NCBI RefSeq assembly: GCF_019599405.1
Contig: NZ_RKLQ01000001.1
Coordinates: 682,001 to 746,000 of the forward strand
Direction of reading: 5' to 3'
Length of the DNA: 64,000 nucleotides
Source: Haloarcula salinisoli
GTDB lineage: Archaea; Halobacteriota; Halobacteria; Halobacteriales; Haloarculaceae
In this document: positions 7,048 through 19,607 of the stretch, piece after piece
Layout: every line of letters begins with the position of its first letter
Position numbering within the stretch: position 1 is the first letter of the stretch
Translations under genes and position numbers: made by a program
Notes under the pieces: model-generated
Databases searched by the model: none
What the model was told of the DNA's origin: nothing
The model's input: the letters and a program-made list of their open reading frames with translations, nothing else

Positions 7048-8391
7048 TCAGAACGGCGCGAAGAAGGCGCCGTCCTCGACGAGGAACAGTTCGTTGATCC
7101 CGAGTGCCAGCGTGGCCAGCACAGCGACCACGACGACCACGCGGAGCGTCCAGAGCCACGCCGACCCGCCGGCGCCCAGCCCACCGGTCCCCTCGCGCAG
7201 CTCGGCGACGGCGTCGGCCCCGAGTACCCACCCGACGAAAATCGTCGTGGCGAGCACCGACAGCGGGAGAAAGAGCTGGTAGGCCACGCTGTCGAACCAG
7301 GTCAGCCATCCCGTATCCCACGCCGAGGGCAGCCCCAGCACGAAGAGCCCGACACCGATGACCGGCGCGAGCACCGTCCGGGGCACGTCGTAGTTGTCGT
7401 TGGCGTAGGCGACGGTCACCTCGAGCAGGCTGATGGCCGAGGACAGCGCCGCGATGAGGACGACGCCGAAGAAGACGACACCGAACAGCCGACCGAACGG
7501 AACAGAGCCAAAGCCCGCGGCGGTGGCGACGAACAGCGCGCCCGCGCCGCCGCTCTCGGTCGTGATCTCGGCACCGATGGTCAGCAGGATGGGGAAGACG
7601 ACGAGTCCGGCCAGCACGCCGACGAGCGTGTTCGTCACGACGATGGCCCCGCCGTCGACGACGAGGTTGTCGTCGCCACCGACGTATGAGGAGTACGTCA
7701 CCATGATGGCCATCCCCAGCGAGAGCGTGAAGAAGGCCTGCCCGACCGCGAAGGGGATGATGCTCCCGGCGTTTGCGACCATCTCACCCAGGTCCGGTGA
7801 GAGGAAGAAGTCGTAGCCCGCACCGGCGCCGGGCAGGGTCGTCACCCAGACGGCCAGGGCGACCATCAGGAGGAGGATGCTCGGTACCATCAGCTTCGTC
7901 GCGGTCTCGATGCCGTCCTCGACGCCGAGCGAGACGATGCCGACCACCAGTGCCAGGAAGAGCGCCTGGGCGAGCACCGCCTCCGGCCCCGCCGACACCG
8001 CGCCGAAGTAGCCCGCCGGGTCCCCGAAGTACGCGCCCCGGGCGCTCCCCAGAACGTAGCGCAGCACCCACCCGCCGACGACGTTGTAGTACGAGAGGAT
8101 CCAAAAGCCCGTGAGCACGGCCAGCGCGCCCACGGCCCGCCACTGCCGGTGGCCCAGCCGCTCGAAGGCGTCGACAGCGTTGACGTGGGTCCGTCGCCCC
8201 AGCACGAACTCCGCGAGCATCGCCGGGAAGCCGATGAGCGCGACGGCGAGGAGGTAGAAGACGACGAACGCCGCTCCGCCGTTGGTCGCGGTCTTGAACG
8301 GGAACTGCCAGAGGTTCCCGAGACCGACTGCGCTCCCGATGGCTGCCAGTACAAAGCCGGGACGGGTCGCCCACGTTTCACGGTCTGCCAT
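7048..8391 (-). CDS. SNF-family sodium-dependent transporter (copy 2)
   Basis: The 447-residue protein is a diverged tandem paralogue of the gene 54 nt downstream. It shares the N-terminal signature GFVLAAIGSAVGLGNLWQFP, the GRRTHVNAVDAF loop and the order of hydrophobic helices. Copies differ at many core positions, including the WQFPF versus WRFPW signature end. Paired SNF genes are frequent in haloarchaea, and it is unknown whether the two proteins form a mixed complex or differ in substrate. Both could be transcribed from the promoter region before 8391. Confidence 0.9.
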   Translation of the reverse strand: MADRETWATRPGFVLAAIGSAVGLGNLWQFPFKTATNGGAAFVVFYLLAVALIGFPAMLAEFVLGRRTHVNAVDAFERLGHRQWRAVGALAVLTGFWILSYYNVVGGWVLRYVLGSARGAYFGDPAGYFGAVSAGPEAVLAQALFLALVVGIVSLGVEDGIETATKLMVPSILLLMVALAVWVTTLPGAGAGYDFFLSPDLGEMVANAGSIIPFAVGQAFFTLSLGMAIMVTYSSYVGGDDNLVVDGGAIVVTNTLVGVLAGLVVFPILLTIGAEITTESGGAGALFVATAAGFGSVPFGRLFGVVFFGVVLIAALSSAISLLEVTVAYANDNYDVPRTVLAPVIGVGLFVLGLPSAWDTGWLTWFDSVAYQLFLPLSVLATTIFVGWVLGADAVAELREGTGGLGAGGSAWLWTLRVVVVVAVLATLALGINELFLVEDGAFFAPF

Positions 8392-14478: not shown

Positions 14479-16821
14479 ATGTCAAAAGACCGAGATTCGC
14501 CGCTGCCGAGCGTCGTCGGCGACAGTTACGCCGCACGGCTCGGCGTCGCCCTCGCGTTCGCCATCGTCGTCGTCGTCGCCTTCGGTGCCCTCATCAGTGC
14601 CCAGGCGTCCGCGACACTCGCGGAGGACGTCGAGCGCGACACGACGGCGCTCTCAGACACACAGGCGGCACAACTAGACGGATGGCTGACGACGGCCCGC
14701 CGGGACGTCCGAACGACCTCGCGTCTCCCCGTCTTCGCTGACGGCTCGCAGTCGGCCGTTCAGGACAGACTGACGGGCCTCGTGGCGAACGAGGAGGTGC
14801 CGCCGGACGTCGTGGCGGTCCACTACGTCAACACTTCGAGCGGAACCATCACTGCCAGCTCGAACGAGCAGTTCGTCGGCGTCAACGCCACGGAACAGGG
14901 CGCAGCCTTCGCGACTGACCCGCCCGAGTTCAGCGGGCCCGACGACACCCACGTCACCGACCCGTTCTCGGTGTCCGTCGTCGACCACCCGATAATCGCC
15001 GTCGTCTCGCCGGTGGCCGGGGCCGAGAACCGCGCCATCGTCTACATGACCGACCTCGAAGCGCGGGCCGAGTCGATATCTAACCAGCGCGAGGGGTCCT
15101 ACACGACAGTCGTCAACGGGGACGGCGAGTTCATCGCCCACCCGAACACCTCGCGTATCGGCTCTAGCGCACCGGTCGCGTCGGGCGCGGACGACCCGGT
15201 GAGCTCACTCGACAGCGGCCAGAGTACGTTCGTCGAGACCGACGAGACGCTGCTGGGAATCTCCCGGCTCGAGAGCCACGACTGGTCGGTGATGGTCCAC
15301 GCCGACCGGGCCCAGGCCTACGCCCTCTCGGACCAGATTAACTCCGACCTCGTGGGGCTCATCCTGCTTGCGGTCATCAACCTCGGGCTGGTCGGGGTGA
15401 CCATCGGCGGCAGCACAATCGCCTCGCTGCGCCGACTCTCCTCGAAGGCAGAGGCGATGGCCGGCGGTGACCTCGAGGTCGACCTCGAAACCGCTCGGTC
15501 GGACGAGTTCGGCACGCTGTACGGCGCCTTCGACAATATGCGGACGAACCTCCGGTCGAAGATATCCGACGCGGAAGCCGCCCGTGAGGAGGCGGAGTCG
15601 GCGAAACAATCGGCCGAAGCCGCCAGGGAGGAGGCCGAGCAGGCACGGACGGAGGTCGAGGCCGAGCGCAACGAGATGGAGGCCCTCTCGAGTCACCTCG
15701 AACTGAAAGCAGCGGAGTACTCCACCACGCTGGAATCGGCCGCTGACGGTGACCTCACCGCTCGCGTCGACACCGATAGCATGAGCGATGCGATGGCCGA
15801 CGTCGGCCGGGAGATCAACGCGACCCTCGACGCGCTCGCTGGCACTATCGCCGATATGCAGGACTTCGCCGACAACGTGATGGGGGCCAGCGACCGGGTC
15901 GAGACCAACGCCGAGCGCGTCGGAATGGCGAGCCAGCAGGTCTCACAGTCCATCGAGGAGATATTCGAGGGTGCGACCGAGCAGAGCGAGCGCCTCCAGG
16001 AGGGGTCGGCCGAGATGGACAACCTCTCGGCGACCGCCGAGGAGGTAGCTGCCTCGGCCCAGGAGGTCGCGAACACGTCCCAGTCGGCCGCCGAAGTCGG
16101 CGAGGACGGCCGCGAAGCCGCTCAGGACGCCATCAGTGAGATGAGCGCCATCGACGAGGAGACCGCCGAGACGGTGAGCGAAATCAACGCTCTGGAGGAC
16201 GACTTAGAGGAGATCGGTGACATCGTGAGCGTCATCACGAACATCGTCGAGCAGACGAACATGCTGGCGCTGAACGCCTCTATCGAGGCCGCACACGCCG
16301 ACAAGGACGGCGACGGGTTCGCGGTCGTCGCCGACGAGATAAAGGGACTCGCCGAGGAGACGAAAGCCGCCGCCGCGGACATCGAGGACCGCATCGAGCG
16401 CATCCAGTCCCAGGCCGGCGACACCGTCGACACCATCGAGTCGACGAGCGAACGCATCTCCGAGGGGGTCGAGACCGTCGAGGAGACCGTCGACGCCCTG
16501 GAGACCATCGTCGAGTACACCGAGGAGGTCGATACCGGCATTCAGGAGATAGACCGCGCAACTGAGGAACAGGCCCGAACCGCACAGGACGTGCAGGCGA
16601 CAATCGACGAGCTGAGCACCATCTCCCAGCAGACGGCGGCAGAGGCCGACACGGTCGCCGGCGCGGCCGACGACCAGGCGGCCTCCATCGAGACGGTGAC
16701 CGACTCGGCCCAGGACTTGCGCGCCCGCGCAGAGGACCTCGAATCCGTCCTCGAACAGTTCGAGGTCGACGAGGCCGGGCTGGACGACACGAGCGAGGCG
16801 GCCGCTGCGGGGGACGACTGA
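14479..16821 (+). CDS. htrII: Sensory rhodopsin II transducer HtrII with large extracellular domain
   Basis: This is a 780-residue methyl-accepting chemotaxis protein. A first membrane helix lies at about 19-41 and an extracellular cache-like domain at about 42-290. A second helix (about 291-312) is followed by HAMP domains and coiled coils (about 313-470). The cytoplasmic signalling hairpin centres on NMLALNASIEAAHADKDGDG. Its identity follows from the sensory rhodopsin gene 2 nt downstream. Transducers of this kind relay photon capture to CheA and the flagellar motor. The large outer domain recalls Halobacterium salinarum HtrII, which also senses serine, so a second, chemical input is likely. 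The ligand is not readable. Confidence 0.92.
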   Translation: MSKDRDSPLPSVVGDSYAARLGVALAFAIVVVVAFGALISAQASATLAEDVERDTTALSDTQAAQLDGWLTTARRDVRTTSRLPVFADGSQSAVQDRLTGLVANEEVPPDVVAVHYVNTSSGTITASSNEQFVGVNATEQGAAFATDPPEFSGPDDTHVTDPFSVSVVDHPIIAVVSPVAGAENRAIVYMTDLEARAESISNQREGSYTTVVNGDGEFIAHPNTSRIGSSAPVASGADDPVSSLDSGQSTFVETDETLLGISRLESHDWSVMVHADRAQAYALSDQINSDLVGLILLAVINLGLVGVTIGGSTIASLRRLSSKAEAMAGGDLEVDLETARSDEFGTLYGAFDNMRTNLRSKISDAEAAREEAESAKQSAEAAREEAEQARTEVEAERNEMEALSSHLELKAAEYSTTLESAADGDLTARVDTDSMSDAMADVGREINATLDALAGTIADMQDFADNVMGASDRVETNAERVGMASQQVSQSIEEIFEGATEQSERLQEGSAEMDNLSATAEEVAASAQEVANTSQSAAEVGEDGREAAQDAISEMSAIDEETAETVSEINALEDDLEEIGDIVSVITNIVEQTNMLALNASIEAAHADKDGDGFAVVADEIKGLAEETKAAAADIEDRIERIQSQAGDTVDTIESTSERISEGVETVEETVDALETIVEYTEEVDTGIQEIDRATEEQARTAQDVQATIDELSTISQQTAAEADTVAGAADDQAASIETVTDSAQDLRARAEDLESVLEQFEVDEAGLDDTSEAAAAGDD

Positions 16822-16823
16822 CA

Positions 16824-17528
16824 ATGGCTACGATAACGACCTGGTTCACGCTGGGACTGCTCGGTGAACTGCTCGGGACCGCGCTGCTGGCCTATGGGTA
16901 CCGGCTGGTCCCCGAAGCGACGCGGAAACGGTATCTCCTGCTGGTCGCGATTCCCGGCATCGCCATTTTCGCGTATCTCCTCTTGGTTCTCGGTATCGGC
17001 GCCATCGACGGCGGCGGCCACACTGTCTACGTGGTCCGGTACGTCGACTGGCTACTGACGACGCCGATAAACGTCCTCTATCTGGGGCTGCTCGCCAACG
17101 CGAACCGCGAGGCCATCGGCAAACTGGTCGGCCTCCAGGCGCTCACCATCGTCTTTGGCTTCGCCGGCGCGGTCGCCAGTGGGGCGCTCGCATACGCCCT
17201 GTTCGCGCTCGGGGCCGCGGCCTTCGCCGGTGTCGTCTACCTGCTGTACTACGATGTGGCCGATGCGGCCGTCGCCTCGCTCTCGGACGTGGAGGCCAGC
17301 CTCTACCGCACACTCAGGAACTTCGTCGTCGTCCTCTGGTCGGTCTACCCCGTCGTCTGGCTGCTCGGCGCCGCGGGTGTCGGCCTGATGGACGTCGAGA
17401 CGGCCTCGCTCGTCATCGTCTACCTGGACGTGGTGACGAAGGTCGGGTTCGGAATCATCGCACTCAACGCGTGGCTGACGATAGACAGCGTCACGACTGC
17501 CGACGGCAGTAGCGTCGCGGCAGACTGA
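16824..17528 (+). CDS. sopII: Sensory rhodopsin II (blue-light phototaxis receptor)
   Basis: The 234-residue protein has seven membrane helices. Arg72 and the Schiff-base counter-ion Asp75 lie in VRYVDWLLTTP at the same numbering as Natronomonas SRII. The retinal Lys206 sits in LDVVTKVGFG, and preceding Thr205 and Tyr175 (in SVYPVVW) match the SRII residues needed for signalling to the transducer. The proton-donor position of pumps, in the segment following helix C, is not acidic (NVLYLGLLANAN), which argues against bacteriorhodopsin. It binds HtrII in the membrane and drives repellent responses to blue-green light. It is cotranscribed with htrII. Confidence 0.93.
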   Translation: MATITTWFTLGLLGELLGTALLAYGYRLVPEATRKRYLLLVAIPGIAIFAYLLLVLGIGAIDGGGHTVYVVRYVDWLLTTPINVLYLGLLANANREAIGKLVGLQALTIVFGFAGAVASGALAYALFALGAAAFAGVVYLLYYDVADAAVASLSDVEASLYRTLRNFVVVLWSVYPVVWLLGAAGVGLMDVETASLVIVYLDVVTKVGFGIIALNAWLTIDSVTTADGSSVAAD

Positions 17529-17714: not shown

Positions 17715-19607
17715 TCACGTGCCACCGCCGTTTTGCCAGCGCTCGACCAGTTCGAGCAGCGTCTGGTCGTCGATTGTCCGGCCGTCGGTGCCGGGGACAG
17801 GCGCCTCGTCGTGCCAGTAGTCGACCGCGTCTAGAATCTCAGCGTCGTCTATCTCACCGTCGTCGTCTTCGTCGAGAGCTGTCGCCATCGACACCGCCTC
17901 ATCGTCGTCGCCAGGGGCCACGGTTACGGTCCCCTGCATCTCGCTTCGGTGGGGCCGACAGGAGTACTCGTATGTTCCCGCGACGTCGAACGTGTGCGTG
18001 TGGCTATGGCCGGCGCTCTGGGTGCCGTCGACGCCAGCCCACTCTGCGCCGTCGGGCTGTGCATCGACGGAAAGCGTGTGGCCGTCGGCGTCCCACTCGA
18101 AGGCGACCACGGTGCCAGGCTCGATTTGCAGGGTCGCCGGCGAGAACTCGCGGGCGCCGTCGGGTGCGACCGTCACCGTCTCGTCGGCGTCGGGATGTGG
18201 CTCCGCCTCTTCGAGTTCGAACCAGTTGAGATTCCAGTACGGTTCCTCTGCACGGATACGGAGGACGCACTCTCCGGCCCCGAGCTGGATTTCGCCGGCG
18301 GAGACGGTGGTGTAGCGCTGCCAGCCGCCGGTCCCGTCGAAGGAGGTCGACGCTACGCGGTCGCCGTCGACCGCTACCGAGAAGCCGACGACGTCGTACT
18401 CGTCTTCCGATGCCACACGCGCCCTGAGTTCGTACGCGCCCGTCTCGGCCACCTCCACCGTGTACTCCCACCACTCGCCGCTTTCGACGTCACAGATGTT
18501 GTAGCCGTTTTCGCTGGCCGCCTCGAGGTCGACGCTCTCTTCGGGCCGGTAGGGCTCGCCGGTGGTCCCCTCGGTGCCGTCGCTGTAGGCGACACCCGCG
18601 CCCCCGATGTCGAAGTCCTCGGCCGCGACGCGGCCGGGGACAGCGTGTGGCCCCTCGTAAGGCCGCTGTTCGGGGTCGCCCTGGCCGAGTTTGTCGTAGA
18701 CGACGTCGAAGTAGTCGGTCTTCTCGTAGCTCTCGCTCCCGCAGTCGTCCCCCCAGTACGGCGAGGTCATGTTCATATCCTCGCCATCGCCGTTCCACGC
18801 CCAGCCAAGTACCGGCCAGCCCAGCGACGCAGCTCGATCGACCAGCGCCGACCAGTCTGCCTCACCGTCCCGGCGGCTGCCGAACTCGCCGACGATACAG
18901 GGGTAGTCGCTGTTCTCGTCCATGTACTCGACGTCGCTCGTTTTCACCCAGCGTCCCTGGTCGTCGTTCCAGGCGCTGGGGTAGATGTGGGCCGAGAGGA
19001 TGAGGTTGTCGTCGTCGAGCGACGCGGACGCGTCCGCGCCGACCTGGTACGCCTGTCCCCAGCCGGGGATGTCGATCACGATTGGCCCGGTGTAGTCGGT
19101 GCCGGACCGGACCGTCGAGACGGCCTCGTTGTACGCCCCGGAAAACTCCTCGCGGGTCGTCTCGTGGTTGCCCCACTCGTTGTGGAGGTTGACGACGAAC
19201 GAGGAGTTCGCAGCGAGATAGTCGTAGTTGTCGACCCACCACTGGGCGGCGTCCAGCAGGTCCTCCTTGCTGTTGGACCCGTTGTTCGGGTAGTGGTGGC
19301 AGGTCGCGACGACCTGGAGCCCGTTGTCGGCGGCCTCGTCTAGCCACCGTCTGGCGTCGGCGAGGTCGGCCGACGTCTCCCCCCACGACGGCGGTTCTAT
19401 TTCTATCCGGACCGTCTCTATCTCGGGGTGGTCGGCCAACAGGCCCCAGCCGAGGTCCTGAGTCCCGTCACAGAAGTACGACGGCTGGAGGTTGACGCCG
19501 TCGCCGAACCCGACCGACGCGGTCGAGAGACCGGCACCGACGCCCAGCCCGGACCCGATAGCCACACCAGCGCCAGCCGCTCTGAGGAAGTCGCGTCGCG
19601 CGAACAT
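17715..19607 (-). CDS. Secreted GH5-type cellulase with CBM6-like, blue-copper and dockerin-like domains
   Basis: A 630-residue Tat substrate (RRDFLRAAGAG, signal about 1-31). Residues about 35-310 form a GH5-like barrel with proton donor Glu144 in LHNEWG and nucleophile Glu241 in IVGEFGSR. A CBM6-like beta domain follows (about 325-467; EDFDIGG, WWEYTVEVAETG). Residues about 475-565 form a cupredoxin with ligands His510 (DADGHTL), Cys550, His553 and Met557 (YSCRPHRSEM). The tail (about 576-625) has a Ca-loop-like DEDDDGEIDDAEI and a second helix pair, as in dockerin-like haloarchaeal ends. It probably hydrolyses a beta-glucan outside the cell. A copper centre in the same chain is unusual and its role is unknown. 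Confidence 0.85.
   Translation of the reverse strand: MFARRDFLRAAGAGVAIGSGLGVGAGLSTASVGFGDGVNLQPSYFCDGTQDLGWGLLADHPEIETVRIEIEPPSWGETSADLADARRWLDEAADNGLQVVATCHHYPNNGSNSKEDLLDAAQWWVDNYDYLAANSSFVVNLHNEWGNHETTREEFSGAYNEAVSTVRSGTDYTGPIVIDIPGWGQAYQVGADASASLDDDNLILSAHIYPSAWNDDQGRWVKTSDVEYMDENSDYPCIVGEFGSRRDGEADWSALVDRAASLGWPVLGWAWNGDGEDMNMTSPYWGDDCGSESYEKTDYFDVVYDKLGQGDPEQRPYEGPHAVPGRVAAEDFDIGGAGVAYSDGTEGTTGEPYRPEESVDLEAASENGYNICDVESGEWWEYTVEVAETGAYELRARVASEDEYDVVGFSVAVDGDRVASTSFDGTGGWQRYTTVSAGEIQLGAGECVLRIRAEEPYWNLNWFELEEAEPHPDADETVTVAPDGAREFSPATLQIEPGTVVAFEWDADGHTLSVDAQPDGAEWAGVDGTQSAGHSHTHTFDVAGTYEYSCRPHRSEMQGTVTVAPGDDDEAVSMATALDEDDDGEIDDAEILDAVDYWHDEAPVPGTDGRTIDDQTLLELVERWQNGGGT

Follow-up and report, generated by a model that had tools for sequence, protein, structure and literature searches.

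The gene examined here lies at positions 17715-19607 on the minus strand of a 64,000-nucleotide stretch of the Haloarcula salinisoli genome (the window, meaning the whole stretch of DNA that was analysed). It is an intact open reading frame for 630 aa, with an ATG start and a stop codon at 17715-17717, and all features of the protein described below are located on the same minus strand. The encoded protein consists of a Tat-type signal (residues 1-31, MFARRDFLRAAG...; 19515-19607), a catalytic barrel (residues 32-310), a CBM6 domain (326-468), a cupredoxin (475-566) and a dockerin-like tail (570-630). The RRxFL motif of the signal was recognized by eye, and the Pfam TAT_signal family gave only an E value of 1.6; the region contains RRDFLR and an uncharged hydrophobic stretch, after which the acidic mature chain begins. 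The four modules and their key residues had been named from the letters of the DNA (the sequence-only reading), and their residue numbers proved to be exact (N143-E144-W145, E241-F-G, H510, C550, H553 and M557). The modules after the signal have pI values of 4.1-4.3 (4.7 for a 15-residue linker), and the share of D+E across the modules is 16-31%, with a pI of about 4. This acidity and the high GC3 are as expected for a haloarchaeal secreted gene.

The CBM6 domain (18204-18632) was assigned with Pfam CBM_6, which scores 61.9 bits over residues 351-466 (cut-off 28.9), and with the CBM6 structures 2y8k/5la2 in the PDB (E 2.9e-22). It is 57% identical to a CBM6 domain on another protein of the same genome. 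Elsewhere in the window, a transducer-like protein (14479-16821) is directly followed by a seven-helix rhodopsin-like gene (16824-17528), which is convergent with the enzyme gene; the two are probably a sensory rhodopsin pair. No relatives were found in viral contigs scanned with alignments of the cupredoxin, the barrel and the tail.

The copper domain and its shared module

The cupredoxin (17910-18185) is halocyanin/plastocyanin-like. Pfam Copper-bind (PF00127) scores 43.9 bits over residues 480-563 (cut-off 21.2), and the halocyanin profile TIGR03102 gives 55.5 bits, which is below its threshold of 93.8. The predicted copper ligands occur in the order of a type 1 site: His510 (18078-18080), Cys550 (17958-17960), His553 (17949-17951) and the axial Met557 (17937-17939). 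The ligand positions of pseudoazurin and plastocyanin, both matched in the PDB, fall on these same four residues. The blue-copper ligand set that had been read from the sequence is complete and is invariant across 13 aligned halocyanin-type domains. Single-sequence structure models were poor (pLDDT 47-52). The ligand loop is C-x2-H-x3-M in the window cupredoxin and its two siblings, whereas the last spacing was x4 in all 19 of the other halocyanin-type domains examined. A spacing of x3 together with C-x2-H is probably uncommon among the cupredoxins described so far. Tuning of the copper site by loop length has been described (PMC4059628 and references therein).

The cupredoxin and the tail form a mobile unit, of which a survey of 392 Halobacteriales genomes found no more than three occurrences. 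One of the other two copies forms the end of a G8/CEMIP-PKD protein that the same genome encodes on its contig C2 (G000:C2:689267, 67% identical), the other is located at G081:C135, and the two are 66-67% identical to the window module. The best explanation is that the module entered the enzyme as one unit, either from a G8/CEMIP-type surface protein or from a common source. Between the copies, dN is about 0.2 and dS about 0.7-0.8, and the resulting dN/dS of roughly 0.3 indicates purifying selection on the module. The recurrence of the cupredoxin-tail pair in two other proteins, the acidic composition and this ratio all argue that the architecture did not arise by chance. Since both the cupredoxin-tail unit and the CBM6 domain are shared with other proteins, the gene can be regarded as a mosaic of modules already in use on haloarchaeal surface proteins.

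Whether the copper domain of this protein accepts electrons, acts as a sensor or simply binds copper is less certain. The sequence-only reading had linked it to oxidative polysaccharide enzymes, a link that finds no support for LPMO-type enzymes: the genome has no LPMO_10 match, and the idea of an LPMO partner was therefore rejected. No paper on a hydrolase-cupredoxin fusion was found in the literature searched. About 15 kb from a receptor locus (receptors are described below), the genome encodes a lipoprotein with a Tat signal that belongs to the GSDH/PQQ sugar dehydrogenase family (L234 1486-2661; G000:C2:673081), which could be a surface electron donor. It is quite possible that the copper domain is a passenger, having arrived with the tail and doing no more than binding copper or spacing the modules. 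The two modules do travel together in the otherwise unrelated G8/PKD protein and in G081, other GH5_8 relatives of the enzyme have no cupredoxin, and the missing LPMO fits as well. Against this stand the retention of all four ligands in three of three copies, the dN/dS of roughly 0.3 and the PQQ sugar dehydrogenase family lipoprotein as a possible electron source. We regard the passenger role as nearly as likely as a redox role of the copper domain.

The tail and its candidate receptor

The C-terminal tail (17718-17900) was delimited with a tail family profile and belongs to a family that is paired with receptor genes. It contains one canonical EF-hand-type calcium loop in its first half (residues 579-590, from D579 to E590, DEDDDGEIDDAE; 17838-17873), and its second half is degenerate, so that the two loops of a type I dockerin are not both present. 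Neither the full-length protein nor the tail alone matched Dockerin_1 (PF00404) with an E value of 10 or less; the best match was a weak one to EF-hand. The tail that was earlier called dockerin-like has a canonical calcium loop and belongs to a family paired with receptor genes; it is not a Pfam dockerin.

The genome itself holds five copies of the tail, one in the window gene and four on contig C2; of the C2 tail genes, one survives only as a decayed remnant. Each of the four C2 tail genes is immediately followed by a receptor gene, in three cases with an overlapping stop and start (4-bp overlaps). Their products have a signal peptide and an Ig-like domain that Pfam assigns to DUF11/NPCBM_assoc, and after a linker comes a hydrophobic segment in the C-terminal part; one such receptor domain is encoded at G000:C2:688848-689192. 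Decayed tail genes still stand upstream of intact receptor genes at L048 (about 7887-8084) and at L125, and one of them looks as if a Tat signal had been joined to the remains of a tail. Two of the receptor proteins of this genome (L047 7811-9262 and L048 8998-10587) continue for about 130 residues past the transmembrane segment; these residues are conserved between the copies, are perhaps cytoplasmic and might signal docking.

The pairing was examined at two phylogenetic ranges. Within the family of the host (146 genomes, seven of which supplied the receptor seed sequences), tails were found in 20 and receptors in 26 genomes, and both in 16 where 3.6 were expected; when the seven seed genomes were left out, both occurred together in 9 genomes against 1.8 expected (P about 1e-6). 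A test free of seed genomes was made outside the family with tails at E<=1e-9. There, all 21 genomes with a tail also had a receptor, against 3.2 expected from the presence of receptors in 43 of about 282 sampled genomes; the P value of this co-occurrence is only indicative, since 282 is an estimate and genomes of relatives do not count as independent samples. Proximity weighs more: outside the family, a receptor gene lies within 5 kb of 26 of 31 tails. A search of haloarchaea for the same tail or a matching receptor had been proposed earlier, and it yielded both a tail family and a receptor, the latter beside four of the five tails of the genome itself in addition to the 26 of 31 elsewhere. 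Likewise, for the suggested attachment of the enzyme to a surface partner through its tail there is now a candidate receptor domain in the same genome. The tail family therefore has the genomic partnership of a dockerin-like domain. The window gene itself has no receptor gene beside it, its downstream neighbour being the convergent rhodopsin-like gene; its pairing with the C2 receptors is thus one that we infer from the similarity of its tail to the C2 tails (60-65%).

The receptor proteins have no match to Pfam Cohesin (PF00963), their hits being DUF11 and NPCBM_assoc. When the receptor profile was compared with the PDB, the only full-length match was a scaffoldin cohesin (5n5p, which we take to be from Ruminococcus flavefaciens), with E 1.3e-4 over positions 12-113 of 115. 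This match should be read with care, since a local galectin match of 39 positions, probably spurious, scores better and a direct profile comparison (hhalign) of the receptor with the genome's own cohesin found nothing. A search of the genome for classical cohesins gave one plausible pair, together with a weak partial match at a receptor. In this pair (L059, region G000:C1:824144-824464), a metallophosphatase with a dockerin-like end is followed by an overlapping cohesin-like gene with a C-terminal transmembrane segment; both partners are below the Pfam cut-offs, and the gene layout is the same as in the tail/receptor pairs. At L134, L137 and L141, weaker receptor-like domains are preceded by more classical dockerin-like ends, which suggests that the pairing may extend beyond the tail family of the window.

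Scaffoldin-like arrangements were found at four loci (L235, G418:C2:30000-48500; L236, G008:C23:50500-64500; L237; L238). At each of them, one to four receptor (DUF11/NEW3-like) domains stand between a signal peptide and a C-terminal tail in one protein. The gene that comes next, overlapping or adjacent, encodes one or two receptor domains and a dockerin-like end of another kind, and large tail-bearing proteins precede the scaffoldin-like gene. In addition, a receptor domain and a tail are joined within one small secreted protein at L067 (979-1668) and at L129.

In the literature searched, the few papers that deal with dockerin-like domains in haloarchaea take such tails for probable substrate-binding domains (PMC10963439, PMC13260240), and the Pfam matches of the receptor are to generic Ig-like families. 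Both points would suit a tail that binds calcium or substrate, or forms a stalk, docks to nothing and accompanies the receptors merely through shared surface-protein operons. This is unlikely, because the tail is coupled, across many families, to a single particular subfamily of Ig domains, three to four receptor domains are combined with a tail in scaffoldin-like proteins, and the 4-bp gene overlaps come with the same layout as the dockerin/cohesin-like pair of the genome itself. The best reading of the receptor is a so far unrecognised analogue of cohesin, which would act as the socket for a dockerin-like plug.

The catalytic barrel and its probable substrate

The barrel (18678-19514) is GH5-type. 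The predicted acid/base Glu144 (N-E-W; 19176-19178) and the predicted nucleophile Glu241 (G-E-F-G; 18885-18887) are invariant in an alignment of 24 sequences, in which the relatives are 54-71% identical, and they lie in the conserved NE and GEFG motifs, which GH5 enzymes have where strands 4 and 7 end. The barrel by itself does not match Pfam Cellulase (PF00150), which is matched by 12 of the 24 aligned sequences (best 1.1e-19). When a profile built from this alignment was run against the PDB, the top matches were 1bqc (6.6e-19), 4fk9 (2.9e-18) and 1wky (2.6e-17), followed by 3jug, 2whj, 2whl and 3wsu, all seven of which we take by established classification to be GH5_8 mannanases. A further strong match, 4y7e (1.8e-13), aligns over the same range as 3wsu, although its PDB entry calls it an endoglucanase. 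The eight best structures, this one included, are mannanase-type. Haloarchaeal GH5_8 mannanases are known from genomes, where they group with characterised mannanases (PMC10963439). Based on this grouping and on the ranking of the PDB profile search, the barrel is named mannanase-like, and the enzyme is probably a mannan cutter; the term cellulase, used in the sequence-only reading, is replaced. A cellulase or beta-glucanase with the remaining modules unchanged is improbable: GH5 is polyspecific, CBM6 goes with many haloarchaeal GH5 endoglucanases (PMC10963439) and endoglucanases also occur in the PDB search, but the first clear one (6kdd, 1.3e-7) is about ten orders of magnitude weaker than the mannanase-type structures at the top, and a fold search with a weak barrel model likewise gave the mannanase 4fk9 as its best glycanase match.

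The GH5_8-like clade of the barrel is present in 26 of the 392 sampled Halobacteriales genomes. Its other members end in PKD, FN3 or CBM-like domains, and neither a cupredoxin nor this tail was found among at least 25 haloarchaeal relatives examined.

Proposed working of the protein and comparison with known systems

Taken together, a fairly probable reading is that of a GH5_8-type mannanase with a CBM6, a copper domain and a tail docked on a surface receptor. The folded enzyme would leave the cell by the Tat pathway, the CBM6 would hold the polysaccharide and the barrel would cut it close to the cell. The tail would plug into the membrane-anchored Ig-like DUF11/NEW3 receptors encoded on C2, so that products of other genes in this genome would hold the enzyme at the cell surface. 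The cupredoxin is predicted to bind one copper in a type 1 site. It would most likely exchange electrons at the cell surface in the way free halocyanins do, with electrons that the PQQ sugar dehydrogenase family lipoprotein could supply; the domain would probably be redox active and dispensable for hydrolysis. In a wider and more tentative picture, to which we give slightly less than an even chance, haloarchaea have a plug-and-socket system made of a one-loop tail and a DUF11/NEW3-like socket and built into enzymes, scaffoldins and anchors, in which this mannanase is one of the enzymes and its cupredoxin links hydrolysis to electron transfer.

Dockerin-like tails of haloarchaea were noted earlier without a partner, and the genomes now indicate a specific partner domain and scaffoldin-like proteins. 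If the docking is true, this would be a salt-tolerant cellulosome-like system that can be tested directly with two small domains. Natural fusions of a hydrolase to a cupredoxin whose copper loop is shortened are rare, and this one bears on whether copper sites play any part in polysaccharide breakdown beyond LPMOs.

Several known systems can be compared with this protein. GH5_8 endo-beta-1,4-mannanases (1bqc, 4fk9 and 1wky; Natronoglomus GH5_8, PMC10963439) resemble it in the barrel, the catalytic glutamates, the export signal and often an added CBM, whereas the haloarchaeal ones examined have neither the cupredoxin nor the dockerin-like tail. Halocyanins (TIGR03102) and plastocyanin/pseudoazurin share the His-Cys-His-Met set and Pfam Copper-bind with its copper domain; unlike halocyanins, this domain is part of an enzyme, has a ligand loop one residue shorter and scores under the TIGR03102 cut-off. 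The G8/CEMIP-PKD surface protein carries the same cupredoxin-tail module, but it has other N-terminal domains and its own receptor gene downstream. Archaeal cohesin/dockerin systems have been described for ANME archaea (PMC9012536). Type I dockerin/cohesin pairs, including these, also have a short calcium-loop tail at the C-terminus of secreted proteins of various kinds, a partner Ig-like domain with an anchor in the next gene and scaffoldin-like repeats. The haloarchaeal pair differs from them in its single canonical calcium loop without a PF00404 match and in a DUF11/NEW3-like partner without a PF00963 match. Finally, the layout of enzyme, scaffoldin and anchor in cellulosomes is matched by the gene layout of the four scaffoldin-like loci.
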